Shown here in pieces: positions 2 through 55,077 of a stretch of DNA of 64,000 nucleotides. The position numbers and the translations under genes were made by a program. Every line of letters starts with the position of its first letter. The stretch's first letter is position 1. The stretch comes from Pyrodictiaceae archaeon. Its GTDB lineage: Archaea > Thermoproteota > Thermoprotei_A > Sulfolobales > Pyrodictiaceae. The notes under the pieces were generated by a model, which saw only the letters and a list, made by a program, of their open reading frames with translations, did no database searches and was not told the origin of the DNA. The stretch covers positions 872,880 through 936,879 of the forward strand of contig JALVSY010000007.1 of the NCBI GenBank assembly GCA_027036135.1, in the 5' to 3' direction.

Positions 2-322
2 AAGCTCTCCTCGCCCCATATACCAGGCGAGGCGCTTCATGGCCACGACTACCGGGTCAAGGTCTGTATTGAGGGCGAGCTAGGCGAGGACAACAAGGTT
101 GTAGATCACTTAGAACTCCTGGTGCAACTAGATGATTGCCTTAAAGAGATAAATTATCGTTACCTCAACGAGGTCCTAGGGACGCAAAACCCTACAGCCG
201 AGCTCCTTGCAAAGAGGATAGCCGAGTGTATATCGAGCAAGAATATCTTGAGAGGCAATAAGGTAGTACTTGTGGAGGCGTGCACTGCTTCCGAGCTATG
301 CTCCTATTATAAGCCCCCGTAA
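2..322 (+). CDS. 6-pyruvoyltetrahydropterin synthase / QueD-family protein, C-terminal part
   Basis: The reading frame is open from the window edge, so the start lies upstream. The visible 106 residues contain a HGHDY segment (zinc-binding histidines of the PTPS/QueD fold), a VVDHLELL stretch and the NPTAE motif typical of the family. In archaea these enzymes act in queuosine/archaeosine precursor (preQ0) or pterin synthesis. The sequence does not decide between QueD and a pterin enzyme. It matters here because the integrated element downstream carries preQ0-using transglycosylase-like genes that would need a host supply of the base. Confidence 0.8.
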   Translation, partial: KLSSPHIPGEALHGHDYRVKVCIEGELGEDNKVVDHLELLVQLDDCLKEINYRYLNEVLGTQNPTAELLAKRIAECISSKNILRGNKVVLVEACTASELCSYYKPP

Positions 323-5984: not shown

Positions 5985-6197
5985 TTATTTTTGTTGTTTC
6001 AGTGCAGCAAGTATAGATGAGCGAAACTCTTCTAGCGTCATTTCTTCTCGGTGCTTTGGTAATTTTATTAGCAGTACCTTGTTTCCAGAAAGCGCTCTGA
6101 TCTCATCATGATCCTTAAACCGGTATACATCTATTTGTTTTAACTTGAGCTCCTCTAACACCCTTTTGTAGGGCGTGAATTTTCTCCCGGTTGGCAT
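5985..6197 (-). CDS. small hypothetical protein
   Basis: A 70-residue basic protein with no recognisable domain, convergent with thyX. A minus-strand TATA-like CCTTAAAAGC near 6238-6247 lies about 40 bases upstream of the ATG, which supports real expression. The composition is lysine-rich, with predicted alternating helix and strand. Confidence 0.55.
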   Translation of the reverse strand: MPTGRKFTPYKRVLEELKLKQIDVYRFKDHDEIRALSGNKVLLIKLPKHREEMTLEEFRSSILAALKQQK

Positions 6198-6361
6198 ACC
6201 TTGCTCCCGGGGAGATGCGAATCGTGTGTGGGTAGCTTTTAAGGCCTCCTCGCCTCATTAGCTATAATCAATATTGTAATCACGTGTTTATCTATGTTTT
6301 GCTGTGTGCCGAGAAAAAGATATAAATTATAGTAGACGTTCTCACATAAAACGAGCAAATA

Positions 6362-6373
6362 TGATATAAAAGC
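6362..6373 (+). promoter_or_regulatory. TATA box of the vapB-vapC pair
   Basis: GATATAAAAGCG lies about 22-30 bases before the ATG at 6394, consistent with a very short leader. A second TATA-like stretch lies about 50 bases upstream, near 6318. Confidence 0.55.
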
Positions 6374-6393
6374 GATATGAGTGGTGAATCTCT

Positions 6394-6615
6394 ATGAGTG
6401 TAGCTTCAGCGATTTATGTACGTGTGCCACGTGATCTTCTACAAGAGTTCGATAAGGCAGCCCAGCTTCATGGTCTTTCCCGTAGCGAGGCCATTAGAGA
6501 AGCTATGAAGCTCTACATAAGATTCGCTAAGGCACCTGAAGTTAAGAAGCTTCGTGGAATTGCAGAGGCTAACGTGAACCCCGAGGATATAGACAAGTTT
6601 GTTCTACCTGGCTAA
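6394..6615 (+). CDS. ribbon-helix-helix antitoxin (VapB/CopG type)
   Basis: This 73-residue protein has the RHH pattern: a short N-terminal strand (IYVRVPRDLLQEF) followed by GLSRSEAIREAMKLYIR. It is followed after 25 bases by a PIN-domain gene, the standard VapBC order. The antitoxin is expected to bind the toxin through its C-terminus and repress the shared promoter. The motif SRSEAIREA also occurs in the element RHH protein at 17651. Confidence 0.85.
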   Translation: MSVASAIYVRVPRDLLQEFDKAAQLHGLSRSEAIREAMKLYIRFAKAPEVKKLRGIAEANVNPEDIDKFVLPG

Positions 6616-6640
6616 TCACGTATAAGAGGGGTGATCATGA

Positions 6641-7135
6641 ATGGCTGTAAATACATTACTAGTTGACTCCACAGTTCTCATTCGCTTAGTACTAGGCAAA
6701 GAGGGAGCCGATTTCGCTATTAACATCTTTAGTAGAGCAGAGGAGGGCGTTGAAGACATAGTTATACCGAGTACAGCGCTAGTAGAAGCCCTATCCAAGA
6801 CAGCTGTAGCGGCTGCTAACGGAGTAGTAGGGGGTGACGTTAAGGCCGGTATAGAGGCTCTCTATACCAATATAAATGCTCGCGAAAAGGCCGTAGAAGC
6901 CATAGAGAAGCTATCATCCTATCTCATGTTCCTACACAAGACAGGGAGAATAACGATATACAATGTAAGCGCCGATGATATAGAGAAGGCCGTTGAGCTC
7001 ATGAGAAGGAATAACTTAAATTTATCAGATGCAATAACACTAGCCGTTGCCGAGCGACTAAGAATACAGAAAATCGCGACGTTCAGCAAGAAGCTAAGAC
7101 AAGTCACTGGCTATACCTTCCTCCCATCAGCGTAA
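6641..7135 (+). CDS. PIN-domain toxin (VapC type)
   Basis: A 164-residue PIN-domain ribonuclease, downstream partner of the RHH antitoxin. The N-terminal acidic residue is in LLVDSTVLIRL, a second in STALVEAL, and a third in NLSDAITLAVAERL. The usual aspartate of the late 'ATFD' motif is replaced by serine (IATFSKKLR), so one acidic position of the quartet may be missing or supplied elsewhere. The start ATG follows GGGGTGAT. Confidence 0.85.
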   Translation: MAVNTLLVDSTVLIRLVLGKEGADFAINIFSRAEEGVEDIVIPSTALVEALSKTAVAAANGVVGGDVKAGIEALYTNINAREKAVEAIEKLSSYLMFLHKTGRITIYNVSADDIEKAVELMRRNNLNLSDAITLAVAERLRIQKIATFSKKLRQVTGYTFLPSA

Positions 7136-9503: not shown

Positions 9504-9593
9504 GACCTATGCACCGCTATCTATTATCGAGGTAGTGTATGACTCTGTGGATATAGGCAATCTCTGTGCCTTTGAGACGCAGGTAGTTGTTTA

Positions 9594-10262
9594 GTGCCTC
9601 TGCCTCACCGTGTACGGCCCGAGGTGGTTGTAACGGTATTCCATATATTTAATGTCTTAGCAGAGCGCTATGATAAGTGGTATGATAGGAATTGGATAAC
9701 TGCGTTGAATGAACTACGCCTAGTGAAGGCAATGGTTCCCTCCGAGAAGAGTATCTGTGTTGAGGTAGGTGGTGGCACTGGTTTCTTTGCCTCAAGACTG
9801 GGTTGTATTAATGTTGACCCGGCGGAGAAAGTACTAGTTATCTCTAGGAGAAAAGGCGTTGACCCAGTACAGGGAGTTGGCGAGTTCCTTCCAATAAGAC
9901 ACAATTCCGTGGATGTTGTCCTAGTCATAGTTACCCTGTGCTTTGCCGATGAACCGGCAATGCTGCTTACCGAGTCAAGAAGAATATTAAGAGATAACGG
10001 AGCATTAATAGTATGTATCGTTCCCCGTAACTCGCCATGGGGAATATACTACACTTCACGTAAAGACAAGTCACCGTTCTACCGCTATGCCCGTTTTTAC
10101 ACAGTGCTAGAGCTTGAAAAAATGCTAAGCGATATAGGATTCATAATTATAGACGAAAAAGGTGTGCTTAGCTATAAGCCCTGGGAGAGACCTAGGTACG
10201 AGTCCCCTACGAGGCCTACTCAGCGACATGGCTTTGTGTGCATAAAGGCCACAAAGAGGTAG
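9594..10262 (+). CDS. SAM-dependent methyltransferase (class I, type 11)
   Basis: A 222-residue Rossmann methyltransferase. The SAM-binding motif I is CVEVGGGTGFFASRLG, followed by an acidic INVDPAE and a FLPIRHNSVDVVLVIVTLCF post-I region, with ESRRILRDNGALIV as the usual C-terminal marker of UbiE-type enzymes. The substrate cannot be told. The GTG start is accepted because no better one fits. Divergent from the glycosyltransferase gene. Confidence 0.8.
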   Translation: MPLPHRVRPEVVVTVFHIFNVLAERYDKWYDRNWITALNELRLVKAMVPSEKSICVEVGGGTGFFASRLGCINVDPAEKVLVISRRKGVDPVQGVGEFLPIRHNSVDVVLVIVTLCFADEPAMLLTESRRILRDNGALIVCIVPRNSPWGIYYTSRKDKSPFYRYARFYTVLELEKMLSDIGFIIIDEKGVLSYKPWERPRYESPTRPTQRHGFVCIKATKR

Positions 10263-10370
10263 ATGCATTGTACGATACATCCCCCGGAAACATGTTTTTT
10301 ACCTAGATTCCGTCCCCTTATCATTACGGAGTCTTATAAGTTGGTAGGAAAAGGAGGGGGTATATAGGGA

Positions 10371-11210
10371 TTGGCCTCAAAGGCAGCGCTCATAGCAACA
10401 ATTGTAGTAATAATCGTAATAATCGCAGGTATAGCGGCCTATTATGCTGTTAACAAGAGCAAGCAGCAGACGACTCAGAGCAAAACACAGAGCCCGCGCC
10501 CGCCACAACACAGAGCACAACAAAGCAAAAGAAGTGTCTCAGGGTAGGAACATCACCAGACTTCCCGCCGTTTGAGTACATAGCTAAGAATGGCAGTATA
10601 GTTGGCTTTGACATGGATTTGATAAAGTTGGTTGCGCACAAAGCCGGTTATAGCTGCGTAAAGATAATATCGATGGATTTTGATGCATTAATACCAGCGC
10701 TCCAGCAGGGCAAGATAGACGTCATAGCTGCGGGCATGACTATTACTCCCGAGAGGGAGAAAGTAGTTGCCTTCACTATACCTTACTGGGAGGTCGACCA
10801 AGCAGTAATTGTTAGCAAGAAAAAGCAACTTTAGGCCAAAGAATCTAGAGGATCTAGCAGGTAAAACTGTTGGTGTCGAGACCGGAACAACGGCAGCCGA
10901 ATACCTAGGGAAGTATGTAAAAGAGCACAAAGTAAACATAAAGATAAAGAGATATACTAGCTATGTACTAGCAGTACAGGACCTAGTAAATGGTAGGATA
11001 GATGCAGTTATGCTCGATGTGCCAGTTGCGAAAATGTTTACCAAGAAATACCCAGTAGTTATTGCATTCATTGTCAAGACCGGCGAGAAATATGGTTCTG
11101 CAATCAGGAAGAGTGATACAGAGCTACTAAACAAGCTTAACCAGGCACTAAAAGAGATAATGAATAGCCCAGAATGGAACAAACTTGTTGAGAAATACTT
11201 TGGCAGCTAA
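10371..11210 (+). pseudogene. amino-acid ABC transporter substrate-binding protein, two frameshifts
   Basis: Joined over three frames, this is a polar amino-acid-binding protein (family 3). A TTG start lies 10 bases after AAAGGAGGGGG, then a lipoprotein-like signal/TM, a Thr/Gln/Pro linker, and then the core LRVGTSPDFPPFEY, DVIAAGMTITPEREKVVAFT and GKTVGVETGTTAAEYL. The first break is in the C/G-rich linker near 10495-10510 (one base missing); the second is in an A5 run at about 10820 (one base extra). No other stops occur. Either a recently decayed gene or assembly errors. Confidence 0.8.
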
Positions 11211-13436: not shown

Positions 13437-13516
<80 letters not shown>

Positions 13517-18048: not shown

Positions 18049-18696
18049 TTGGCTGCGGGGATTAGGCGCGGCGAGAAATACGTTGTCCGTAAAGTGAACG
18101 GTAGGTGGCCAGCCAAGCATACTGCAGGCCTAGACCCCGCGCTTGTGGGCCCGAGGGCCTTCGAGCACCCCGCGGTAAGGGCTTGGTGGGAGTGGCTGAG
18201 AAAGGAGTACAGGCCACAATACCCAGTAGCCCTGATTACTCCATGTAGCAGTGTGAAGCCCTACACCCGGAGCCCCACGTCGCGGAAGATACGTGGGCTG
18301 CTACGCCGCCTCGGCCTATGGAGCGATGCCAGCAATCAGCCCATTGGGTTGGAGTGGCTATACCTCAGCGACCTCCTGCTCCTAGTCCCCTATGAGCGGG
18401 CCGAGGGGTACCCCGCCTGCTGCTACGAGGTACCGCCCGAGGTCGTGCTCTGCAGCCCAGCGCTGCGCAGCCTAGTGACCAGTCTCCTCGCCGAAGTTGT
18501 GGAGAGGCTCTACGAGCGCGGATTGAGACGCGTCGTACTCTTCCTCCCCAAGAAGCACCTACGGCTCTGGAACGGGGCCAGGAAACGCGCGGTGAAGTGG
18601 CCGAGCGAGACGGTGACTAAGTACAGTATCTTCCGCTTCGACGGGCTCCCCCAAGCCCTCTCTCAGCTCCAAGGAGCTTTACAGGAGCTCCTGTAG
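18049..18696 (+). CDS. ArcS-like (archaeosine synthase-type) protein
   Basis: 215 residues from TTG 18049 (GGTGAGGA upstream). The key element is LITPCSSVKPYTRSPTSRKI, close to the PCSxxKPYSxSxSH signature of archaeosine synthase ArcS and related domains, followed by WLYLSDLLLLVPYERAEGYPACCYEVP, which parallels the ArcS SPLGxVPRELE...YPAAHYDVP motif. ArcS converts preQ0-nucleotide to archaeosine. The following gene is a TGT/DpdA-like transglycosylase, so the pair may make a modified 7-deazaguanine in DNA. It lacks the PUA and N-terminal domains of full-length tRNA ArcS. Confidence 0.6.
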   Translation: MAAGIRRGEKYVVRKVNGRWPAKHTAGLDPALVGPRAFEHPAVRAWWEWLRKEYRPQYPVALITPCSSVKPYTRSPTSRKIRGLLRRLGLWSDASNQPIGLEWLYLSDLLLLVPYERAEGYPACCYEVPPEVVLCSPALRSLVTSLLAEVVERLYERGLRRVVLFLPKKHLRLWNGARKRAVKWPSETVTKYSIFRFDGLPQALSQLQGALQELL

Positions 18697-18712
18697 CGGG
18701 GGGCGAGGCACC

Positions 18713-19642
18713 ATGGCTAGTCTGCGCAGCATAGCTGCTGGCCTCGGTGTGCCTTACTCCACGGCGTACGTCACGTTGGAGAGGTTGCTGGGGCTTAGGC
18801 CTCGCCACATAACAGCCATTGATAATTCTGATGACCAGATTATCAATGGGGATTATGTGGTCGCCGTAATTAGGTCTGTGCTGCTCTTGGCGAGGAATAG
18901 GCTAGAGTACTACACCATGCCGCCGATACCATTGTGGCCGTGGCTGCTTGTCCCCGTTAAGTCTGTAGACGTGTTGGAGAGGTTCCTCGCGGACATGGAG
19001 AGGCTTGGGGCGAGGCCCTCTGCTGTTATCCTCGACGTGGGGATAATGGAGTGGTTCAACAGAAAGACAATGGAGTATACCGGGGAGTTCTGGAGGGCTT
19101 TCTGGCACGGCGTCGACGCGGTGAGAGGGCTTGCCCGTAGATACAGGTTTGCGTGGAGGATTGTTCTCCCCGATGTACCCGCCACTGTTGAGGACAACAT
19201 CTCCCTCACCATGAGGTTGCAGGAGAGGCTGCTGGCGGAGCACCCCGAGCTGCCGTGGATACCTGTCGCGCAGGCCTCGAGGACTACTAGCCACTCTAAT
19301 CACCTAGCGTGGCTGGTTGAGACCGGGGTCGTGGAGAAGTATGGCTGCGTGGCGCTAGGCTCGCTCAAAGTACTGGCTGGCAGGAGGAAGCAGCTATGGA
19401 GGGACGCTGTAGACGGGGCTAGGGCTCTGCTCCACGAGCACGGCCTAGGCAGTGTTAAGCTGCACCTCTTCGGCGCCCCGCTGGACGCCGCCGTCTCCTC
19501 GAGGCTGCCGCCCGGCTCATGGGACTCGAAGACCTGGACCTTTCCCAGGGTGCCGTACCTGTGGAGCGCGAAGGATGGCTCGATGCGCGTAGTCTACTTC
19601 ACAACGTTCCTCGAGAGGCTCGTAGAGCTGCTGGCGGGGTGA
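18713..19642 (+). CDS. DpdA/TGT-like 7-deazaguanine transglycosylase with N-terminal HTH
   Basis: 309 residues. Residues 1-30 form a wHTH-like segment (SLRSIAAGLGVPYSTAYVTLERLLG). From about 75 on the protein follows the tRNA-guanine transglycosylase barrel in its DpdA form: VILDVGIMEWFNRKTM (D108, the DSGGF-like site), WRIVLPDVPATVEDN (D154), PWIPVAQA, YGCVALGSLKV, LHLFGAPLD and GSWDSKTWTFPR (D271, nucleophile-type position). DpdA proteins exchange guanine for preQ0-type bases in DNA; TGT does it in tRNA. Location on a mobile element next to an ArcS-like gene favours DNA as substrate, but this is inference. The N-terminal HTH is unusual. Confidence 0.65.
   Translation: MASLRSIAAGLGVPYSTAYVTLERLLGLRPRHITAIDNSDDQIINGDYVVAVIRSVLLLARNRLEYYTMPPIPLWPWLLVPVKSVDVLERFLADMERLGARPSAVILDVGIMEWFNRKTMEYTGEFWRAFWHGVDAVRGLARRYRFAWRIVLPDVPATVEDNISLTMRLQERLLAEHPELPWIPVAQASRTTSHSNHLAWLVETGVVEKYGCVALGSLKVLAGRRKQLWRDAVDGARALLHEHGLGSVKLHLFGAPLDAAVSSRLPPGSWDSKTWTFPRVPYLWSAKDGSMRVVYFTTFLERLVELLAG
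18816..18849. repeat. interrupted palindrome CCATTGATAAT-N12-ATTATCAATGG
   Basis: Eleven-base arms are perfectly inverted around a 12-base spacer, inside the coding region for residues 35-46 of the DpdA-like protein. A closely related segment occurs on the opposite strand at 35763-35794; the two 46-bp stretches match at about 34 positions when read in the coding direction. Confidence 0.7.
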
Positions 19643-19651
19643 GGGGCTGAG

Positions 19652-19852
19652 ATGATGGACCCCCTCCTCCTCGGCGCAGCGGGGCTCGCTGGCTTCGGGC
19701 TAGGCGTCGTCGCCGGAGGCTACGCCGTGGCTAAGAAGGCCCGGCTGCTCCGGAAGAGCCTCAGCGACTGCGAGCGGGCCGTTCACGAGCTCCAGAAGCT
19801 CCTCCGCTTCTACAGAGCTGTGCTCAACGACAACGGGGGCGGCAATGAATGA
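19652..19852 (+). CDS. small membrane protein with coiled-coil tail
   Basis: 66 residues: a single N-terminal membrane segment (LLLGAAGLAGFGLGVVAGGYAVA) followed by a basic helical stretch (KKARLLRKSLSDCERAVHELQKLLRFYRAVL). Its organisation resembles phage or plasmid small membrane accessory proteins, but no family is recognised. Its stop overlaps the ATG of the next gene (ATGA). Confidence 0.55.
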   Translation: MMDPLLLGAAGLAGFGLGVVAGGYAVAKKARLLRKSLSDCERAVHELQKLLRFYRAVLNDNGGGNE

Positions 19853-20085
19853 GGATAACTATGCGCCAAGGGCTCTACAGGGAAACTATCGCTGGCGCCG
19901 TATGGCTCCTGCTCAGGCTACGGGGCTGCATGCCCCCGGGGGAGATACTCGAGGAACTCCACCAACTAGGCCTCGACACCAGCCGCTCGACCCTGCACCG
20001 AGTGCTGCGGGAGTACACAGGGAGGCTCTTCGAGAGAACGAGGAACGCTGGCCGCATACTCTACTGCGCGATAAGAGAGGTGTAG
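19849..20085 (+). CDS. winged-helix DNA-binding protein
   Basis: 78 residues forming a compact wHTH: AGAVWLLLRLRGCMPPGEILEEL, GLDTSRSTLHRVLREYTGRL (recognition helix) and a wing. It starts in a four-base ATGA overlap with the upstream membrane-protein gene, which fixes the start and shows coupling. Probably a regulator of the element. Confidence 0.6.
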   Translation: MRITMRQGLYRETIAGAVWLLLRLRGCMPPGEILEELHQLGLDTSRSTLHRVLREYTGRLFERTRNAGRILYCAIREV

Positions 20086-20328: not shown

Positions 20329-20919
20329 GTGGTGAGCGTGGCGAGCCCGCGCTGGGCAGGGGAGAAGAGGAGCGCCGCGCTAGCAGCTGTTAACACTGTT
20401 CTCCCAGACATAGTTGGGCCCGCGAAGCGCATGGGGCTACTGGTTAGCGTTGAGTCCACCAAGGACCTGCGGGTCCACGTCGTCACAGTGGAGCTGCCTG
20501 GCTCCAAGCCCCTCATATTAGCACTCTACGCTACCACGGAGGAGTCTAGACCCATTACGTGGAGCAGGCTCGGGCCACGGCTAGAGAGGCTGGAGAAGCA
20601 CCGGGGGCGCTGGGCCCCGCCAGGCGGCGACACGCTCTACTTCGTGCTAGCCGCTTCCCCGAGGACACGTGTCACGGGCCCCGCGAGGAGGATGCTTGCC
20701 AGGAGAAAGGTGCTCTTCCTAACCCCGAGGAAGCTACGCCTCTGGTTCAACCGCTACTTCAACCGCCGCCTAGCAGGGCTAATAAAGAAGCTCAGAGCCA
20801 AGAAGGCCAAGGCGTACGACAAGCTCGCAGAGCTCCTCCGCGTCCTCTACCTCCTAGCCTCCAGGCTAGGACCAGTAACTATTAGCCTACACGAAGTCGA
20901 GGCCATGGTCCGCGCCTAG
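20329..20919 (+). CDS. hypothetical protein, family shared with chromosomal gene at 54418
   Basis: 196 residues, highly basic toward the C-terminus. It aligns with the chromosomal protein at 54418-55077: LAAVNTVLPDIVGPAKRMGLL with ALSEANRVLFPILGGARRLL, LRVHVVTVELPGSKPLILALYATTEESR with KRVHIVLLDIFSHNPLIIALYISTQESR, and DTLYFVLAASPRTRVTGPARRMLARRKVLFLT with DTLYLYITRRRITRGAYREARARGILVALS. I do not recognise the family. Last gene of the DpdA operon. Confidence 0.65.
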   Translation: MVSVASPRWAGEKRSAALAAVNTVLPDIVGPAKRMGLLVSVESTKDLRVHVVTVELPGSKPLILALYATTEESRPITWSRLGPRLERLEKHRGRWAPPGGDTLYFVLAASPRTRVTGPARRMLARRKVLFLTPRKLRLWFNRYFNRRLAGLIKKLRAKKAKAYDKLAELLRVLYLLASRLGPVTISLHEVEAMVRA

Positions 20920-27604: not shown

Positions 27605-28759
27605 TCATCCCCGCACAGCGGGGGCTATCAGGGCTCCATCTTGAACCCTCTGGGAGCCCCTCATCCGCGTGAGGCCCCTTAGCGCTAGGTTCCAAGCCGC
27701 TATGGTATCCCTTGTCGTGACAACATTGTTTGGTAGAAGCACCCAACGATAGTTCAGCCGCTTAACTGGGCCTATTGGCGATGTCTTGCTGGTGTCTCTC
27801 GCTGAAACATAGACTGCCCTTAGTCCTCTCCACGCCGCCTTGTACTCTATGAACTTTTGGAGCCGCCTGTAGGCTAGCTGCGTGAAGAGCCACGCTAGTT
27901 TATCGCTCCTCTCCGAGGCACGGCTTTTCAATCCCTTCAGGTTCTCCAGGACTATGAGAGAGTCGTACTTGTCCGCTATCTCTACTAGCTTCTTGGCTAC
28001 ACGGTGGGTGGCATCGTTGACTATGTTCTTGGCCCTCCTCATCCACCTAGCGTGGACACGACGAGACCACTTCATGAATCTCCAATGCCTCCCAATCCTC
28101 TTCTGCAACCTCTCAGCGAGTTTGCGGAGATGCAGCGCCTTCTTAAACCCCTTAAAGACTATAACGCCTGCCGTCACGATTCTACCAGTACTAGCGTCGA
28201 GAACAACGTAGCTGACGTTGTCAAGGTTGACGTCCACACCCATAACAGTTCTCGGCCTCCTCACCTCAACCTCTCTCTCAAGAGCAACATATACCTTGAA
28301 GCCACCGTCACGGTAGGATACCAGTAGCTCCTTGGGCTGCCACCCCTCGGCCATGAAGCGCTGGAGCCTGTTCACACCTCTTAGCTTTACCTCTACCCAG
28401 CCGCCGTTGAGCGCAGCTATCCTCAGCACCTTTTTCTCCGAGTCCAGCCTGTACTCGTAGGGATGGAGCCTGGCTGTCAGCCTCCTCAATAATGGCTTGG
28501 AGCCGCCGTTCCTCCTGGCTGCTTTCACTATCTCTTTGGCCCTCTTGTATATCTCGCTCACGTGGTGTGCGCGGAAGCCCCACTCGCGTAGCTCCCTGTA
28601 GAACATCTCGTGGAGCTGCCTAACAGTGGGAACCCTATCCATGCCCCATATCCTATCCACGGCGTACTGGACAGCGTCGCGGTACGCCCTGAGGAAGGCT
28701 AACAGGGGCTGGGGATTAGGGGCCACCCCTCCAAGCACAACGGTGGCATGTACCCTCAT
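27605..28759 (-). CDS. tnpB: TnpB RNA-guided nuclease (IS607-associated), zinc ribbon cysteines absent
   Basis: 384 residues. The RuvC triad is in place: D176 (GVDVNLDNVSYVVLD), E272 (IVLENLKGLKSR) and D351 (TTRDTIAAWNLAL). Between E and the last D the usual CxxC...CxxC ribbon reads TSKTSPIGPVKRLNYRW, with no cysteine at all. TnpB uses an RNA from its own 3' end to cut empty donor sites. Its stop overlaps a GC-rich hairpin (about 27618-27633), a plausible omega-RNA feature. Confidence 0.9.
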   Translation of the reverse strand: MRVHATVVLGGVAPNPQPLLAFLRAYRDAVQYAVDRIWGMDRVPTVRQLHEMFYRELREWGFRAHHVSEIYKRAKEIVKAARRNGGSKPLLRRLTARLHPYEYRLDSEKKVLRIAALNGGWVEVKLRGVNRLQRFMAEGWQPKELLVSYRDGGFKVYVALEREVEVRRPRTVMGVDVNLDNVSYVVLDASTGRIVTAGVIVFKGFKKALHLRKLAERLQKRIGRHWRFMKWSRRVHARWMRRAKNIVNDATHRVAKKLVEIADKYDSLIVLENLKGLKSRASERSDKLAWLFTQLAYRRLQKFIEYKAAWRGLRAVYVSARDTSKTSPIGPVKRLNYRWVLLPNNVVTTRDTIAAWNLALRGLTRMRGSQRVQDGALIAPAVRG

Positions 28760-28791
28760 CCCCCAGCCCCGAGCTAGAATATCGGGGAATA

Positions 28792-29454
28792 TCAGCCTGG
28801 TTTAAACCTTTCTGGCAGGGAGACACCCGTCTCCCTTAGAAACCGCAGGTTTGCCTCCACAAGCCTCTTCGCCCTGTGGCTTCTCCTGCCGTAGATACGG
28901 GCGGCAAAGCTAACGATAATCTCTACGAAGTCCTCTACCAGCTCCTCCAACGGCTCCTTCTCCGTCTTAAACGCCTCAACTATCTCCACGCCACACTGCC
29001 TGAAGAAGTACTCTAGGTACTCGAACCCGAACCTGGTGAGACGGTCACGATAGGTAACTAATACAACATCCACGCGGCGCTGGGTAACCATTCTCAAAAG
29101 CTTCCTAAGACCTCTACGGTTTGTCTTCAACCCGCTACCGATGTCTCGTATAATCTCTACGACTTGGTATCCACGCTCGGCAGCATACTTCCTCAACACC
29201 TCAACCTGCCTATCAAGGTCACCTTGCTTAGCCTGTTTATCGCTGCTAACACGGGCATAGATGACAGCACGAGGCTTCTCCACGAGCCTCATCTCTGGTG
29301 GCCTGAGCTTCTCAAACTCCTCAAGAGGGATTGCTAGACGGCCATTGGGTAGCCTCACAACCTTGAAGCGCCCCTGCTTAGCCCACTTCCACAACGTGAT
29401 ATAGGCCACTCCTAGCCGCTCAGCAGCCTCCTTAAGCAAAATGTAACGCTCCAC
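28792..29454 (-). CDS. tnpA: IS607-type serine recombinase TnpA
   Basis: 220 residues. The N-terminal MerR-like HTH (LLKEAAERLGVAYITLWKWAKQG) and the serine-recombinase domain AVIYARVSSDKQ (catalytic Ser near 70), RDIGSGLKTNRRGLRKLL and VVLVTYRDRLTRFG are complete. The C-terminus has the short YGRRSHRAKRL helix of IS607 transposases. Appears functional. It excises and inserts the element as a circular intermediate. Confidence 0.92.
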   Translation of the reverse strand: MERYILLKEAAERLGVAYITLWKWAKQGRFKVVRLPNGRLAIPLEEFEKLRPPEMRLVEKPRAVIYARVSSDKQAKQGDLDRQVEVLRKYAAERGYQVVEIIRDIGSGLKTNRRGLRKLLRMVTQRRVDVVLVTYRDRLTRFGFEYLEYFFRQCGVEIVEAFKTEKEPLEELVEDFVEIIVSFAARIYGRRSHRAKRLVEANLRFLRETGVSLPERFKPG

Positions 29455-37893: not shown

Positions 37894-39798
37894 TTACCAC
37901 TCTCCGGGCCTCGTCGAGAACACCCTCAGCTCCTCTGGCGTGGGCTGCACGTAGATGCGTAGACGCCAGCCACCAGCGACCCTGAGTATTCCCTGGCCAG
38001 GCTCGGCGTCGAGGAGCTGCTCCTCCTCCGCCTCGCTTAGATTATAGATGGGCTTAACCGCCTCCAGCGATGCCTCGTTCAGGCGTAGTAGAAGCACGGT
38101 GGCCGACTGCTCTAGGATTGTCCTGCCATGCTCGCTTCTCAGCACGTCGTGGGGCCTCTGGGTCGCGAACACGAAGTTAACGCCTTTCTTGCGACCCCTC
38201 CTCGCTATGTCGGCGAACATCAACATCAATGAGGGGTACTGGGCGAACATCCATCCCTCGTCTACTACTAGCAAGGAGTTGCGGAGCTGGGAGGAGACTA
38301 CGAGCGCTAGTAGTGCTCCTACCAGAGCCCTGGCGCGGCGGGACCTGATGCCGGCGAGCGCGTAGACAGCGCCCCTCCCTGTGGGGAGCGGGGGCTCTCC
38401 ACGGTATATCCACGAGTCGGCCTCGGCTGCTTTCAGGTAGTTCTCGAGCCCCGTGGCTCTCTCCTCGGCGAGCCTAGCTGCCTCCTCTAGGCTCTCGGAC
38501 TCGCCTAGAACGTCTACTAGCTCGCCTCGTAGCTCGTCGGGGACGCGGTAGTACTCCTGCACAATGTCCACGGCCTCGTCGAGCCCTATTACCCCCCTCC
38601 TCCACAGCCTGACAGGGTCCAGGCCTAGGCCTCCACGTTCCCCAGCAGCGTCCTTGCTTAGCTCGTAGCCCGCGAGGCCGGTAGCCAAGTACTCCCTAAT
38701 ACCAATGTACTCGGACTCAGGGTCTATGATTATGGTCTTCTGGCCCAGGCCAGCAGCCCACCACCTCCTCACATACACTTTCAGCGTCATGCTCTTACCT
38801 GAACCAGTCTCCCCCAGTACCACCACGTTGTAATTCGGCCTAGCATAGGGGTTGAAGACAACGGGCTCCCCGGTATCCAGGTCGTAGCCGAGATAGAGGC
38901 CGCCAAAGTCGACCAGCTGCTCCTGCACCAGAGGATACAATGCCTGCGCGCTCAGAGTATCGACATAATGGAATACCGGCACCGTCCACTCAAGATTATA
39001 TAATCGTCTCTGGTAGAACCCCGGGCCACTAGCATATTCTACCATCCTCGAGGCTAGGAGCTCCTCGAGGCGCCTGCTGCGCTCCCAGAGCTCCTCCTGG
39101 CTAGAACCCCTAACTACCAACACTATCGCTATCTTCACGAGCCGGGCCTTGCCTCCTAGGAGCTGTTGTAGCTGCTGGAGCTTGTATGCCTCCTGCTCTA
39201 GCTGCCAGGTCGTGGAGCCACGGAGCACTGATTGTAGCCTGAGAAGCCTCTGGTCAATCATCCTCCTCGCTTTAGCGGGCTCCACGGGCTCTATGAGGAA
39301 GTGTATCTCATCGGTAGCATAGATTAGCTCGAGGGGCCACGCCTCGGGCAGGCTGTCGGGCAGCTTGACAACAGTATACGCCCTAGCGTAACCGCCATCC
39401 TCTAGCTCGAGGATGCCGCGGGCTACGCGCCTCACTACAGGCCTGTAAGGCTCCGCTGCTGGCCTTGGCTCGTAGCCGAGCTGCATTAACAAGCCATAAT
39501 CCAGGCCCTCGGCGAAGAATAGGAGCCGGCGAAACTTGAAGCCCTCGATGCTGTCCCATGCTGCATAAATCGAGATACGAGCCTTATCATTGGCAGCGTT
39601 CAATAACGCGGTCCACTTAGATAGGAATCTGTCGCGCTCCTTCTCGGGGAGAGCCGCGAAGGGGTAGCCCTGGACCTGTAAAAGGAGGCTGAGCTCACTG
39701 CTTCTTGGGGCTCTCTTCCTCGCTCTTTGTTTCTCCCTCTGCCCCTGGCTTTGCTTCGACTTTGATAGGCTGGGCACGCTTCTCCCCGCTATAGACAC
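37894..39798 (-). CDS. VirB4/TraC-like (CedB-like) conjugation ATPase
   Basis: 634 residues. The C-terminal ATPase holds Walker A LGETGSGKSMT (about 327-337), the IIIDPESEY motif, Walker B SLLVVDEGWMF (about 509-519) and the sensor FVFATQRP. The N-terminal 300 residues form a divergent domain as in VirB4. It energises pilus/channel assembly or DNA transport. GTG start; the gene overlaps the preceding VirB3-like gene by about 100 bases, and the order VirB2-VirB3-VirB4 is conserved. Confidence 0.85.
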   Translation of the reverse strand: MSIAGRSVPSLSKSKQSQGQREKQRARKRAPRSSELSLLLQVQGYPFAALPEKERDRFLSKWTALLNAANDKARISIYAAWDSIEGFKFRRLLFFAEGLDYGLLMQLGYEPRPAAEPYRPVVRRVARGILELEDGGYARAYTVVKLPDSLPEAWPLELIYATDEIHFLIEPVEPAKARRMIDQRLLRLQSVLRGSTTWQLEQEAYKLQQLQQLLGGKARLVKIAIVLVVRGSSQEELWERSRRLEELLASRMVEYASGPGFYQRRLYNLEWTVPVFHYVDTLSAQALYPLVQEQLVDFGGLYLGYDLDTGEPVVFNPYARPNYNVVVLGETGSGKSMTLKVYVRRWWAAGLGQKTIIIDPESEYIGIREYLATGLAGYELSKDAAGERGGLGLDPVRLWRRGVIGLDEAVDIVQEYYRVPDELRGELVDVLGESESLEEAARLAEERATGLENYLKAAEADSWIYRGEPPLPTGRGAVYALAGIRSRRARALVGALLALVVSSQLRNSLLVVDEGWMFAQYPSLMLMFADIARRGRKKGVNFVFATQRPHDVLRSEHGRTILEQSATVLLLRLNEASLEAVKPIYNLSEAEEEQLLDAEPGQGILRVAGGWRLRIYVQPTPEELRVFSTRPGEW

Positions 39799-42167: not shown

Positions 42168-44135
42168 CTAGAAGACGTTGAGCAACATTATTGTCGCCAG
42201 CGTGGAGAGCACGGCAGCCAAGGGCCACAACGTGTCCCTCACCGTCAGGCTTATCGCCTTGGCGGCGAGGAAGCCCATCACCGCGGCAGCTATGAGCGCT
42301 AGCCAGGCTATGAACCCGGCGACGTTGCCGGAGAGCGTGAGCGGCAACGACTCGAGCACCTGCGTCGTCGAGCCCATGATTCGCTGCAGCCCAGCAGCCA
42401 TCACCGCCACTATCGGGGGGAACCCGATGGCGAGGAAGCCCAGCAGCCTAAGCCTCATACTAGCAGCCCTGTGTGCACTGACGTGCGCGTATACGAGGTC
42501 ATAGAGCCGCTCGAGTGCCAGAGGGTCGCTGGCCCCCTGCGAGCCAACGATGTTGACTACCGTGTACAGGGTGTACTTTGCTAGCCAGGAGCGTGCCCTA
42601 ATACCGCCTGACCTGGCCGCCGCCCTCGCAGCAGCTGCCAGGGGCTCCTCTACGCTGCCAACGGCGTGCTCCAGTAGCTGGGATACAGGCTTATCGGACA
42701 TGCTCCTCGTGTACTCTATCACCATTCTTAGTAGTGGCAGTAGCTCCCGCTCCTCTTTGCTCACTAGGCGCTTCTGTGCTCTGAAGGCCACGCCGTAGAC
42801 GCCTAGCCCGGCTGCAGCCGAGAACCCAGCGGACATTATCGCTGGTAGCCCGAGGACCGTGCATAGGAGGGCGGCTGCGCTTGCAGCCACCACGGCGGCT
42901 ATGACTGCCTCGGCGTCCCTGTATTTCTCCCTGAGCCGGGGCTGGCTACCAGCGAGTAAGGAGTAGCCTAGGGGCGCAGCCAGGATTATTGCTAGGGCTG
43001 CTAACCCAGCGCCCCTACCGCCGAGGAATGCCGAGAACATGACAAATATCAGGGTGGTCGCCAATAAGCCCATCAAGCCAGTGCCGAGGGCTACTCCGTT
43101 CTCCGCGTACGCGGCTATCCTGGCCCTTAGCTCGTCGGTCTCAGCGCGCAAGGTGTCGCTGAGAAAAGCTGCCACGTCGCCGCCGCTATCTCTTATCGCC
43201 AAGTAGTAGGCGTAGAACCTGCGCAGCCTACGGCTAGGATGCTTGTTAGCGAGTTCCTCGGGGCTCTTACCAGCATCAGCACCTATGGCTGGTAATAGTT
43301 TACTCTTACGGGCCTCTTCGAGCGCATCCTCGAGAGAACCTGTACCCGAGCGCTCCATGAGCCAGGCCCACAGGCTGAGATATGGGAGCTCCTCCTCCGC
43401 CGCCCTCGCTCTTTCCCTAGCTTTTGCCTCGAGGTGTGCTCTTAGGAGTGGCAGGGATAGAGGCGGCAATAGCGCTGATAGTAGTAGCGCCTTGCTCCCA
43501 GCAAGCACCGCCAGGCCAGCCAGCACAGCGGACGCGGCTAGACTACCTAGTAATATTATAGATACTAGTGCTGCGGTCTCGAACCTAGTCCACCTATAGC
43601 CAGCCTTCTCAACCGCCTCGGGGACCCCGAGCCGAGCTGCAACCCTATCCCCGAGGGGTATGGCGCCTAGGACCACGGGTACAACGTATCTTAGTACTCC
43701 TCGGGGCTCTTCGGGTCTCTCTCTGAGCCCCTTCCTAAGCATGTAGAGCATCCACGCGCCGGGGATTATCGGCAGTGCACCTATCAGCGCTAGTACTGGG
43801 TTCCTCTCTAGCTGGAGCGTGGACGAGACAACCCCCAGCACCATCATGGCTATAGAGGCTAGGAGTACTAGTCTCCTAGAGGGATAGAGCGCCAAGCGGT
43901 AGAGAAAACCAGTTGCCAGGTCTAGGGCAAATAACGCGAAGAGGAAAACACCTAGGCCGAGCACAGTGGGCGTGACACGGACCTCAGGCTCCGCTAGGCC
44001 CAGCAGCGTTCTCCACGGAACCATCCCGAGGATTATTAGGAGCGTTGACGCTATCGCCACCGCTAACTGGTAGCCCGTTATTATCCTCCTTGCCTTCTGC
44101 GTCTTTGCCTGAGCCGCCTCCATTACCCTCCCCAC
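42168..44135 (-). CDS. TadC/ArlJ-like type IV pilus platform protein
   Basis: 655 residues with two repeated T2SSF-like domains, each with hydrophobic segments separated by cytoplasmic helices (such as EELPYLSLWAWLMERSGTGSLEDALEEA and ELLPLLRMVIEYTRSMSDKPVSQLLEHA). It anchors the pilus ATPase in the membrane. Its 5' end overlaps the ATPase gene by about 150 bases in a different frame, so an internal start is possible. Confidence 0.75.
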   Translation of the reverse strand: MGRVMEAAQAKTQKARRIITGYQLAVAIASTLLIILGMVPWRTLLGLAEPEVRVTPTVLGLGVFLFALFALDLATGFLYRLALYPSRRLVLLASIAMMVLGVVSSTLQLERNPVLALIGALPIIPGAWMLYMLRKGLRERPEEPRGVLRYVVPVVLGAIPLGDRVAARLGVPEAVEKAGYRWTRFETAALVSIILLGSLAASAVLAGLAVLAGSKALLLSALLPPLSLPLLRAHLEAKARERARAAEEELPYLSLWAWLMERSGTGSLEDALEEARKSKLLPAIGADAGKSPEELANKHPSRRLRRFYAYYLAIRDSGGDVAAFLSDTLRAETDELRARIAAYAENGVALGTGLMGLLATTLIFVMFSAFLGGRGAGLAALAIILAAPLGYSLLAGSQPRLREKYRDAEAVIAAVVAASAAALLCTVLGLPAIMSAGFSAAAGLGVYGVAFRAQKRLVSKEERELLPLLRMVIEYTRSMSDKPVSQLLEHAVGSVEEPLAAAARAAARSGGIRARSWLAKYTLYTVVNIVGSQGASDPLALERLYDLVYAHVSAHRAASMRLRLLGFLAIGFPPIVAVMAAGLQRIMGSTTQVLESLPLTLSGNVAGFIAWLALIAAAVMGFLAAKAISLTVRDTLWPLAAVLSTLATIMLLNVF

Positions 44136-45609
44136 TATGTCTGCCTGCCTGGGAGAAGGAGACGCGCCGAGGCTCGGCCACCTTTACGAGTTCGTCTCTC
44201 TCGGGGTCGTAGCGGTAGAGGAGGCGTTCGCCACCGCTCGGCAGAACCTCATAGATGGCCACGACCCTGCGAACGGTTCTCTCGCCCAGCCTTACCTTGT
44301 CGAGGACAACAACAGACCAGAGAAGTACCAGCATATCCTCCCTTACGCCTAGCTTCAATAGTCTCAGCTTCAGCTCCTCCCAGTCCCGGGCATGGAACGT
44401 AGCAGCGCTAGCCTCCCCGAGCGCTGCTACCTCGAAGAGGTCCAGTATCTCTGGTCCACGGGCCTCCGTTATCGCTGTGAATTGTCCCCGGAGCCTCAGC
44501 GCGACCCGTATGAGGTCCTGGTACGTTACCTCGGTCTGCCTACTCGCGGCGAGGCTCCTCGCCCTCCTCACTCTCAGGCTTATGAAGCGTGGATGCCTCG
44601 GCCTAAGCTCCGGGACATCCTCTATGGCTACGAGCTTCCAGTCACCGGGGAGCTTCTCCATCAAGGCGTTTAGCAGCGTGGTCTTGCCCGTGCCCTGGGG
44701 GCCTATAATGAACACCATTCCGCGGCTCAGCAGCACTCTCAGCAAGTACTCGGCTGCCTCCCCGCTCAGCATCTTATCCGCTACCAGGTCCTCGAGGCTC
44801 AGCGGCTTCTCTGGGTGCTTCCTAACCGATAGACTCGTGGCACTAGCTATCGTGCCGAGAACCATTGTGACGCGGTGACCGTTCAGCTCCGCCTCGGCGA
44901 TAGGGAATGCTGGAGATATAGCTGTCCCAGCGGCGGAGGCCAAGCGCTGCAGGTATTCCCGGAACTCATACTCGGGGGGCGCAACTATGCTGGTAGGGAT
45001 GTACTCTCTTCCCGGCATCTTCCTGTGAATAATATCTACGGGTCTCCCGGCCACAGCACTTATCTCCTCAACATCCGGGTCGAGTACTAGCGGATAGAGG
45101 AACCCCCAGGGCGAGAGAGACTTCTCCACGTAGTAGCGGAAGGCCTCTGGCTGCCGCTGCATAATCTCCGAGACACCCAGCTTCTCTGCAGCCTCGCCAG
45201 CCTTCTCTGGCGGGAGACCGTGCTTCTCCAAGTACTCTATGACTATGCGGAGCGCCTTCTCGGCGTCAGGGTCTAAGCGGGGCTCTACGACCTCGTACCT
45301 ATCCTCGCCCACTACTATGGTCAGCACGCCGACGCCGTACTCGAGGACCCGGTGCTCGCTAATACTCCCCGCCTGGTCCTTGTCTCCCTCGCCGAACTGT
45401 CCCCCAGACTCTGCAGCTCCAGCACCCTCCCCACCCGCCTCAGGCTCCTCGGAAGCCCCATGGATTCTCTGAGCCTCTTCATCCTCGAGCAGGTCAAGCA
45501 ACAGATCCTCTTCTATCCCACGATGCTCTGTCTCCTCCTCGCCGCTCGGCTCCTTCACCAGCTCCTCGGGTATCTCCTCCCCGTTATCCCCCGCCATGGG
45601 CTCCATCAC
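43984..45609 (-). CDS. type IV pilus/secretion ATPase (TadA/VirB11 superfamily)
   Basis: 541 residues. Walker A GPQGTGKTT lies near residue 303, the acidic box AIEDVPELRPRHP follows, and the His-containing ASAATFHARDWEELKLRL element is near 420. The N-terminal 90 residues are acidic and low complexity. The C-terminal 50 residues are Gly/Asn-rich where the frame overlaps the TadC-like gene. This ATPase powers assembly of archaeal pili; as a VirB11 relative it could also serve the transfer channel. Confidence 0.85.
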   Translation of the reverse strand: MMEPMAGDNGEEIPEELVKEPSGEEETEHRGIEEDLLLDLLEDEEAQRIHGASEEPEAGGEGAGAAESGGQFGEGDKDQAGSISEHRVLEYGVGVLTIVVGEDRYEVVEPRLDPDAEKALRIVIEYLEKHGLPPEKAGEAAEKLGVSEIMQRQPEAFRYYVEKSLSPWGFLYPLVLDPDVEEISAVAGRPVDIIHRKMPGREYIPTSIVAPPEYEFREYLQRLASAAGTAISPAFPIAEAELNGHRVTMVLGTIASATSLSVRKHPEKPLSLEDLVADKMLSGEAAEYLLRVLLSRGMVFIIGPQGTGKTTLLNALMEKLPGDWKLVAIEDVPELRPRHPRFISLRVRRARSLAASRQTEVTYQDLIRVALRLRGQFTAITEARGPEILDLFEVAALGEASAATFHARDWEELKLRLLKLGVREDMLVLLWSVVVLDKVRLGERTVRRVVAIYEVLPSGGERLLYRYDPERDELVKVAEPRRVSFSQAGRHSGEGNGGGSGKDAEGKEDNNGLPVSGGDSVNAPNNPRDGSVENAAGPSGA

Positions 45610-47919: not shown

Positions 47920-48795
47920 ATGAGAGCCAAGAGCCAAGCAATAACTATTAGGGAAGTTGACTGGAGAAGTTTCGCTATATACCTCGAGGGGCTTGGGCTC
48001 TCGAGGAAGTGGAGGGAGGATCTGCTAAGGTACGCTAGGCGCTATGGATGGCTCGTGTACGAGGACCATGTTAGGCTCCGTGTGGAGCTGAGGAGATTAA
48101 GCCCCCATATGCGCAACAAGGTGATGAATGCACTATCGCACTTAGCGAGGTTCCTTGAAGAGCACGGCGAGGAGGGGCTCTACGAGGAGCTGAGGAAACG
48201 GTTCCGGAGAGCACGGCTAGCATGGAGCAAGGGGCGGCCCCGGCTACGGGTTCTCGCTAGCCTCGAGGACATGCTAGAGCCTGTAACTCATGCAGCGTCT
48301 ATGCTCAAGCCAAGGCACTATAGGGTGTTCGCGGCGTTCCTCTTAGCCACTGGGCTCCGGCCCGAGGAGGCTGCAAAAGCGTGGCGAAGCTACTGGCGCG
48401 TGAGGATGCGCTACCGGGACATGGTGCTACTGGACCTAGAGGCAGTAGGACTCGACAGAGACACTAAGAGAGCCATAGTAGCCATGGTTCACCCGCTTGC
48501 GGACGCTGAGGTGCCGGAGAAGCCCAGGATAAGCCTAGCATTACTCCGGAGGAAGTGGAACAAGGCCGCAGAAGAAGCTGCCGGGAAGAGAATAGAGCTT
48601 TACACCATGAGACGGCTCCATGCAACACTCTTACTACACGCCGGGGTACCGGAGCACATAGTGGACCTGCTACAAGGCCGCCCAGGCTCCACAATCCTGC
48701 GACAAAACTACATCATGTACACGCTCTACGAGTACTGGCACAGCTACATCAAAGCCCTCCAGAACCCCCTCTCAATAATTCTAGGCAAAGACTAG
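47920..48795 (+). CDS. int: tyrosine recombinase (pNOB8/SSV-type archaeal integrase)
   Basis: 291 residues. The catalytic core is LLATGLRPEEA (Arg147), LYTMRRLHATLLLHAGVPEHIVDLLQGRP (box II) and ILRQNYIMYTL (nucleophile Tyr264). The N-terminal half is a SAM-like core-binding domain. The stop codon lies five bases before the right att repeat, and the gene is intact, as in pNOB8-type integration and unlike SSV-type, where the gene is split. It integrates the element into tRNA-Asn. Confidence 0.9.
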   Translation: MRAKSQAITIREVDWRSFAIYLEGLGLSRKWREDLLRYARRYGWLVYEDHVRLRVELRRLSPHMRNKVMNALSHLARFLEEHGEEGLYEELRKRFRRARLAWSKGRPRLRVLASLEDMLEPVTHAASMLKPRHYRVFAAFLLATGLRPEEAAKAWRSYWRVRMRYRDMVLLDLEAVGLDRDTKRAIVAMVHPLADAEVPEKPRISLALLRRKWNKAAEEAAGKRIELYTMRRLHATLLLHAGVPEHIVDLLQGRPGSTILRQNYIMYTLYEYWHSYIKALQNPLSIILGKD

Positions 48796-48799
48796 TCTT

Positions 48800-48851
48800 C
48801 GGGCTGTTAACCCGGTGGTCGGTGGTTCGAATCCACCCGGCGGCGCCACAC
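48800..48851 (+). repeat. attR core (52-bp direct repeat of the tRNA-Asn 3' half)
   Basis: Identical over 52 bases to 13465-13516, starting in the anticodon stem and including the encoded CCA. It is a partial tRNA only. Chromosomal sequence resumes at 48852. Confidence 0.95.
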
Positions 48852-54417: not shown

Positions 54418-55077
54418 CTAGGTACGAAGTGGCGGTTTAAGAACCTCTTGTAAGCTATGTACATCTATTCCCACTTCATAGGCTTTCACGATAGTGATTA
54501 TGGAGGGTTCATTTATTTCTGCTCCGAGTTTCTTTGCTAAAACAGATAGAGCGTATGCGAAGAGTGCTAGGCGTCCCCATATGCGCTTTGACGTGATTTT
54601 TTGTAAGAGTTTGTTCAGTCTTGCTAACAGGTACCGTGCTATTCTTCTCCTTGCCTCCTTGCTGCTTAGCGCGACTAAGATTCCCCGCGCTCTTGCTTCC
54701 CTATAAGCGCCCCGGGTAATTCTTCTACGAGTTATGTACAAGTATAATGTATCAGCGGAGATGAATTCACTTCCCCTTAGTTTTTCAACTTCCCTTGCAA
54801 GTCTCCTGGCCCGCCGGAGTAGCTGTGAAGGCGAGGTTGCCCGTGATTCCTGTGTACTAATGTACAATGCAATGATCAGCGGGTTATGCGAGAAAATATC
54901 GAGAAGTACTATGTGGACACGCTTATCCGTTGTCGAGTATACCTTGGTTCTTGTTATGTGGAGTCTTGCTAGCTCAGCTACCTGTAATAGTCTCCTAGCA
55001 CCACCTAGTATTGGAAAGAGAACCCTATTTGCCTCGCTCAGTGCTAGTTCACGTCGCTGTAGCTCTGTTAGAGCCAA
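54418..55077 (-). CDS. hypothetical protein, chromosomal homologue of element gene 20329
   Basis: 219 residues, highly basic. Aligns along its length with the 196-residue element protein (see shared RVHIVLLDIFSHNPLIIALY and RVHVVTVELPGSKPLILALY, and DTLYLYI with DTLYFVL). No domain recognised. A lone gene next to an AT-rich region 5.6 kb from attR; it may be a relic of an earlier integration. Confidence 0.65.
   Translation of the reverse strand: MALTELQRRELALSEANRVLFPILGGARRLLQVAELARLHITRTKVYSTTDKRVHIVLLDIFSHNPLIIALYISTQESRATSPSQLLRRARRLAREVEKLRGSEFISADTLYLYITRRRITRGAYREARARGILVALSSKEARRRIARYLLARLNKLLQKITSKRIWGRLALFAYALSVLAKKLGAEINEPSIITIVKAYEVGIDVHSLQEVLKPPLRT

Follow-up and report, generated by a model that had tools for sequence, protein, structure and literature searches.

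An HTH-fused DpdA-like gene beside a stand-alone ArcS-core gene on an archaeal integrative conjugative-type element: a candidate module for 7-deazaguanine modification of DNA

Known cases of DNA modification with 7-deazaguanines come from phages, bacterial islands and some archaeal viruses. In the window analysed here, a stretch of 64,000 nucleotides of DNA from a hyperthermophilic-type archaeon, a gene for an ArcS-like protein is followed on the same strand, after a gap of 16 bp, by a gene for a DpdA-like protein. A reading made from the sequence alone (the sequence-only reading) had suggested that this pair provides a conjugative element with archaeosine-like bases in its DNA, which might shield it against restriction by the host. 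The locus raises the question of whether the two proteins would act together, on which substrate, and with which product.

The gene pair and its integrative element

Both open reading frames (ORFs) of the sequence-only reading are present (Table 1). When compared with their counterparts in related elements of genomes G003 and G004, the ArcS-like and the DpdA-like gene alike gave dN/dS values of 0.22-0.31, and this purifying selection indicates that both ORFs are real selected genes and that neither is a chance frame. The pair is located within a 35.3-kb element bounded by two 52-bp direct repeats, with an integrase at the right end. Since att repeats at a tRNA gene, an integrase and transfer ATPases are all present, the region was classified as an integrative conjugative-type element, and the earlier claim that a DpdA-like enzyme of the TGT superfamily adjoins an ArcS-core protein on such an element is supported. 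The related elements, which lie beside tRNA-Thr in G003 and beside tRNA-Val in G004, keep the ArcS-like and DpdA-like pair, and the gene order regulator, ArcS-like protein, DpdA-like protein, 78-aa protein, 196-aa protein and coupling ATPase is common to all three elements. Also, an ORF of 79 aa similar to the 78-aa protein was seen by eye after the DpdA-like gene of locus L078.

Two minor observations concern the surroundings of the pair. Inside the element, TnpB and a serine resolvase are encoded at 27605-29454 (IS607-like insertion), and a gene of the host at 54418-55077 is similar (~29%) to the 196-aa protein as encoded by the elements.

Table 1. Location of the gene pair and of other features of the integrative element (positions in the window).
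Feature	Position	Strand	Remarks
attL, 52-bp direct repeat over the 3' part of tRNA-Asn	13465..13516	+	tRNA-Asn gene at 13438-13513
Stand-alone ArcS-core (DUF5591) protein, ~215 aa	18049..18696	+	TTG start after ggtgagg; motifs PCSSVKPYTRSPTS and YPACCYE
HTH-fused DpdA-like transglycosylase (predicted), 309 aa	18713..19642	+	ATG start; HTH at residues ~3-38, then TGT-type TIM barrel
78-aa protein	19849..20085	+	Downstream of DpdA-like gene; kept in G003 and G004 elements, blastp identity 50-58%
196-aa protein, conserved	20329..20919	+	blastp ~50% to G003/G004 elements; similar ORF in L078
VirD4/TraG-TraD-like coupling ATPase, 1137 aa	23386..26799	+	Pfam TrwB_AAD_bind 7.8e-11, TraG-D_C 3.9e-9, DUF87 6.6e-13
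VirB4/HerA-like ATPase of transfer apparatus	37894..39798	-	Pfam AAA_10 3.4e-10, DUF87 4.4e-7
T2SSF-like membrane protein (42168-44135) and T2SSE-type secretion ATPase (43984-45609)	42168..45609	-	Pfam T2SSE 4e-20; T2SSF 9e-5, below cut-off
Archaeal phage/plasmid-type integrase beside attR	47920..48795	+	Pfam Phage_integr_3 2.7e-7, over cut-off
attR, identical to the 52-bp repeat of attL	48800..48851	+	

The DpdA-like protein and its relatives

An alignment of 11 diverged DpdA-like homologues revealed that D108, P153-D154-P156, H251, S269, D271 and W275 are invariant and that Q187, F253, G254 and S272 are nearly so; the TGT residues singled out by the sequence-only reading are among these conserved ones. 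The residue set of a TGT barrel (general-base Asp, base-binding Asp/Gln and nucleophile Asp) is present, and in an hhalign comparison with an arcTGT/TGT alignment (Prob 95.6, E 1.3e-8) residues D108, D154 and D271 paired with D99, D134 and D257 of arcTGT. When the family profile was searched against PDB (177,635 sequences), archaeosine TGT (1iq8, E 0.006) ranked first and the DNA-guanine transglycosylase DpdA (7ui4, E 0.5) second, although with weak E-values. A conserved residue of 9g-type DpdA, His196, is missing in DpdA2; the invariant H251 of the DpdA-like protein occupies a position at which archaeal TGTs also have a His.

An AF2 model of the DpdA-like protein (pLDDT 85, pTM 0.87) contains predicted HTH helices at residues 4-10, 15-26 and 30-38, and the HTH region of one relative, L077, matches HTH_5 at 4.7e-4. 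The protein has a single Cys, ends with the barrel, and is devoid of the CxCxxC zinc site, the C1 domain and the PUA domain. In contrast, the arcTGT of the host has a CSCPVC zinc site and reaches 574.7 bits with TIGR00432.

Direct searches with the DpdA-like protein yielded no relevant Pfam or NCBIfam family. No match was obtained with Pfam DpdA (PF23859, cut-off 27 bits), NCBIfam DpdA (NF041059, cut-off 200 bits) or the PADLOC DpdA models, and a weak match (E=0.001) was obtained with phrog_887 'queuine tRNA-ribosyltransferase'. A PF23859 search across the host family was uninformative, since the control genomes gave no match either. When the DpdA-like protein was used as a single query, no match was obtained among PDB sequences, phages, plasmids, genome contigs or viral contigs; its relatives were reached by genome searches and profiles only. 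When viral contigs were scanned for patterns, that of alignment A5 was not found and that of alignment A7 was found in STSV viruses only. The relative L073, detected with the window-family profile, scores 27.0 bits with Pfam DpdA (2.8e-6), which is exactly the cut-off, and matches PADLOC DpdA (1e-6) and NCBIfam DpdA (9.6e-8); it is the only member of the DpdA-like family that reaches PF23859. Another relative, L033, matches phrog_1279 at 2.4e-8. The link to DpdA is thus provided by relatives, profiles and structure, whereas the window protein itself fails the DpdA models and is not assigned to the curated DpdA families in the strict sense. Its placement in the TGT/DpdA superfamily is well supported by the alignments and by the predicted structure.

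With the DpdA proteins of dpd islands and of phages 9g, CAjan and Rosebush (7ui4; PF23859/NF041059), the window protein has in common the TGT-type barrel, the positions of the catalytic Asp residues, the location on mobile DNA and the absence of a tRNA-binding PUA domain. It differs from them in being short (309 aa), in its N-terminal HTH and in that the DpdA models are matched by its relatives and not by the protein itself. Also, its element is of an archaeal integrative conjugative type, and neither preQ0 synthesis genes (queC/D/E, folE) nor dpdB-K partner genes were detected among the element ORFs scanned, so that the element would depend on the host for preQ0.

The sequence-only reading had expected structural resemblance to TGT, DpdA and ArcS. 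For the DpdA-like model, this was borne out at the level of the TGT-family fold: the best Foldseek match in PDB was Cap10 in a complex with NDG-modified CdnD (9ntn, E 9.8e-5), and the best named matches among predicted viral structures were phage queuine tRNA-ribosyltransferases, R9TGF0 of Vibrio phage nt-1 occupying rank 16. TM-scores were modest (0.4-0.5), and archaeosine TGT and 7ui4 were both absent from the top 50 PDB structure matches. Cap10 is a TGT-family enzyme remodelled for binding a protein N-terminus (PMC11996544), and its top rank, together with its similar size (~325 vs 309 aa), would fit a DpdA-like protein that attaches deazaguanine to protein and not to nucleic acid. We consider such an activity very unlikely, since the window protein has no match to the PADLOC TGT (type IV CBASS) model, no CBASS genes were found nearby, no Cap9/QueC-like or nucleotidyltransferase (CD-NTase) partner was encountered among the element ORFs scanned, the viral-structure matches are phage DpdA-type proteins, and an HTH fusion takes the place of the CD-NTase partner.

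Whole-genome searches identified DpdA-like copies with 73% identity in G003 and G004 and with ~30% identity in G223, where the gene adjoins an MCM helicase and a thymidylate synthase. By a profile search, copies were traced in more genomes of Thermoproteota, and G000, the genome to which the window belongs, proved to have a second one (contig C32). Nearly all of these relatives reside on mobile-looking or viral DNA. The HTH fusion, the lack of a PUA domain and zinc site, and this mobile or viral setting point to DNA as the probable substrate.

Some of these loci deserve a brief description. The divergent 302-aa protein on contig C32 (L074:6534-7442), a mobile-looking contig, has as its neighbour an ORF of 187 aa that weakly matches a SAM methyltransferase. 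An element or virus in a Thermofilales MAG (L080, same contig as L033) carries two DpdA-like genes (6117-6842 and 9574-10551), a thymidylate-synthase-like gene and an MCM helicase. In L078 (Acidilobaceae MAG, 4-1318), the downstream genes are those of the window element, and a second DpdA-like fragment stands in the upstream position of the ArcS-like gene. A third TGT-barrel protein of G000 (L029:3164-4273, contig C7, - strand; 369 aa) contains a CxCxxC site and resembles DpdA weakly (PADLOC 1.5e-4). Its gene is close to a HerA-type ATPase and to genes resembling, by eye, CRISPR-associated Csx1/CARF, and similar proteins occur in G003, G004, G011, G012 and G016.

The ArcS-core protein and the host 7-deazaguanine pathway

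The motif of ArcS is PC-x3-KPY-x2-S-x2-H, followed downstream by a YP motif. In the upstream protein of the pair, the motifs PCSSVKPYTRS and YPACCYE, which had been the basis for calling it ArcS-like, vary little or not at all among 17 relatives, and the protein exceeds the cut-off of Pfam DUF5591 (PF17884, the ArcS core domain) with 27.1 bits vs 26. The final His of the motif is replaced by Ser in all window-type proteins, whereas STSV, the Sulfolobaceae-type copies and AF0587 all have the His. A partial match to NCBIfam ArcS (2.4e-5) was obtained; with the full-length ArcS model NF040592 the protein scores 22 bits vs a cut-off of 440, and no genome of the host family passes this model. The protein thus shares the core domain with archaeosine synthase (ArcS/RaSEA) but is devoid of the TGT-like N-terminal domain and of the PUA domain, and no RaSEA was seen on the element. 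Its best structure match was 2q07/AF0587 (E 1e-3), and because the model is weak (pLDDT 61), this agreement with an ArcS fold was taken as supporting evidence only.

Relatives with DUF5591 occur in 14/20 genomes of the host family and are widespread in the order, and all six near-complete genomes of the family have a chromosomal DUF5591 gene. In most genomes of the family, this chromosomal stand-alone gene is 53-57% identical to the ArcS-like gene of the element. As the latter is a paralogue of a chromosomal gene that has no TGT-like neighbour, its function may be independent of the element. In G000 (L022) and G007 (L014), the chromosomal ArcS-core gene adjoins a radical SAM protein; that of G000 additionally contains HhH motifs and gives a sub-threshold match with TIGR03916 (putative DNA modification/repair radical SAM).

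The host encodes arcTGT, QueC and two QueD-family proteins and could plausibly supply preQ0 by these genes; it also has a QueF-L-type gene. A search of this genome for RaSEA gave no convincing candidate, TIGR01210 having no match over the cut-off; this model also misses divergent short RaSEA-like proteins. With a QueF-L-type gene, no full ArcS and no convincing RaSEA in the host, the ArcS-like protein does not appear to be needed for making tRNA archaeosine via the ArcS route. Within the host family the archaeosine route seems to be split, as G000, G003, G004 and G007 have QueF-L-type genes, while in G011 and G012 a short RaSEA-like protein accompanies a stand-alone ArcS core of the His type. 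The sequence-only reading had brought in the QueD-family gene at the left edge of the window (2-322; match at 23-286 with E=6.5e-12) as a source of precursor. It is a real host gene, and host supply of preQ0 is plausible; however, ~13 kb separate it from the att site of the element, outside which it lies, and elsewhere in the genome there is a better match to QueD; we dropped it as a part of the system.

The host genes also bear on whether the pair might act on tRNA, that is, whether an alternative TGT and an ArcS-like enzyme add or restore 7-deazaguanine in host tRNA and thereby tune translation. The best-known TGT and ArcS enzymes do act on tRNA, profile similarity to ArcS and arcTGT is partial, and some phages carry preQ0 genes without DpdA, which has been read as boosting tRNA-Q of the host (PMC6884629). 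A tRNA function is nevertheless unlikely in our view: the host already possesses a full arcTGT together with the QueF-L-type gene, the element protein has an HTH instead of the zinc site, C1 and PUA domains of arcTGT, and its relatives have the mobile or viral setting described above.

Proposed function and an independent pair in STSV viruses

We regard it as probable that the pair constitutes a two-step 7-deazaguanine DNA-modification module of the integrative conjugative-type element, in which guanine is swapped for host-made preQ0 and the ArcS-like enzyme modifies the nitrile. Judging from fold and active site, the HTH-DpdA protein would bind DNA and exchange guanine for preQ0, which would be drawn from the tRNA archaeosine pathway of the host. 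In a second step, the ArcS-core protein would act on the nitrile of the inserted preQ0, to which it would add an amine donor. A preQ0-derived base, possibly but not necessarily archaeosine, would result, and the likely benefit would be a mark on the DNA of the element, or its protection against nucleases, while the element is transferred or becomes established. Most likely, then, the pair writes a preQ0-derived base into DNA, DNA, and not tRNA or protein, being the presumed target.

Archaeosine itself, the product favoured by the sequence-only reading, is doubtful, because the final His of the motif and the rest of ArcS are missing and no clear RaSEA was found in the genome. Characterised ArcS requires RaSEA for activity, and T. 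kodakarensis ArcS acts on preQ0 nucleoside derivatives as minimal substrates only when complexed with RaSEA (PMC11298593). This requirement counts against the proposed module, as do the missing His, the DpdA-like relatives without an ArcS gene nearby, the lack of precursor genes of its own, the failure of the window protein with DpdA models and the modest TM-scores.

A precedent exists in Vibrio phage nt-1, which has DpdA2 and ArcS and whose DNA contains dG+, dPreQ0 and dADG (PMC6884629). In both cases a transglycosylase and an ArcS homologue are encoded on one mobile genome. However, the group of nt-1 also encodes preQ0 synthesis genes, whereas the window pair would rely on the host and has the ArcS core domain only.

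Among known viruses, the ArcS-like protein matched STSV1, STSV2 and STSV4 only. In all three, the ArcS-core gene overlaps a TGT-family gene annotated as 'hypothetical', the product of which contains DSGGYQ, HVLGAGSP and DSVDTSTY and matches phrog_887 with an E of 5.9e-56; a thymidylate synthase is the neighbour of this gene, and an adenine methylase is encoded nearby. The ORF18-ORF19 pairs of STSV1/STSV2/STSV4 thus resemble the window pair in that a TGT-family protein (phrog_887) accompanies a stand-alone DUF5591 ArcS-core protein. They differ in the full ArcS-core motif (PCTSVKPYN[RK]SATH), in the TGT-family protein, which belongs to another subgroup without HTH, in the host lineage from which the ArcS-like gene derives, and in being carried by a virus and not by a conjugative-type element. 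In a tree of 36 ArcS-like sequences, the element copies fell inside the family of the window host and the STSV copies grouped with chromosomal genes of family f4, which we infer to be Sulfolobaceae, with a support of 100/100 between the sides. This split indicates that two mobile lineages each recruited the ArcS-core gene of their own host beside a TGT/DpdA-type gene of a different subgroup. Independent assembly of the pair argues that the two activities belong together, and the analogous STSV pair strengthens the link between TGT/DpdA-type and ArcS-core proteins.

The same comparison bears on whether the two genes merely lie side by side and do not belong to one pathway, the ArcS-like gene being a duplicate of a host gene and the DpdA-like protein either acting alone, by inserting plain preQ0 or another base into DNA, or being a non-catalytic DNA-binding regulator. 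The similarity of the ArcS-like gene to its chromosomal paralogue would agree with this, as would the many DpdA-like relatives that have no ArcS-like neighbour (among them L077, L078 and L080) and the extra small ORFs that separate the two genes in the G003 and G004 elements. We nevertheless judge a chance neighbourhood to be improbable, since the pair is kept in three elements under purifying selection, the catalytic residues are invariant, and an independent pair of TGT and ArcS core with overlapping genes exists in STSV.

If the two-step module is correct, conjugative-type elements of Thermoproteota join the carriers of 7-deazaguanine DNA modification, and they do so with a minimal version in which preQ0 is borrowed from the host tRNA pathway, a DNA-binding domain is fused to the transglycosylase and the ArcS core alone is retained. 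The class of chemistry is already known, but in the literature searched we found no description of the fusion with an HTH, of an ArcS core that stands alone, of a conjugative-type element with such a design fed by the host, or of its recurrence in STSV. More tentatively, archaeal mobile elements could possess, in HTH-DpdA and the stand-alone ArcS core, a DNA hypermodification cassette of two genes that is fed by the host and yields a new preQ0-amine base other than archaeosine, analogous pairs having arisen independently in conjugative-type elements and in STSV, where the pair would account for the modification of STSV1 DNA.

In the description of STSV1 from 2005, the viral DNA was reportedly modified in an unusual way. 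No paper linking STSV1 with a transglycosylase was found in the literature searched, and the STSV ORF18-ORF19 pair (TGT and ArcS core) may explain the reported modification, for which it is a testable candidate. The pair, both members of which are annotated as hypothetical proteins, is located at L067:5148-6489 in STSV1 (ORF18-19) and at L065:3073-4483 in STSV2 (STSV2_15-16), with overlapping frames.
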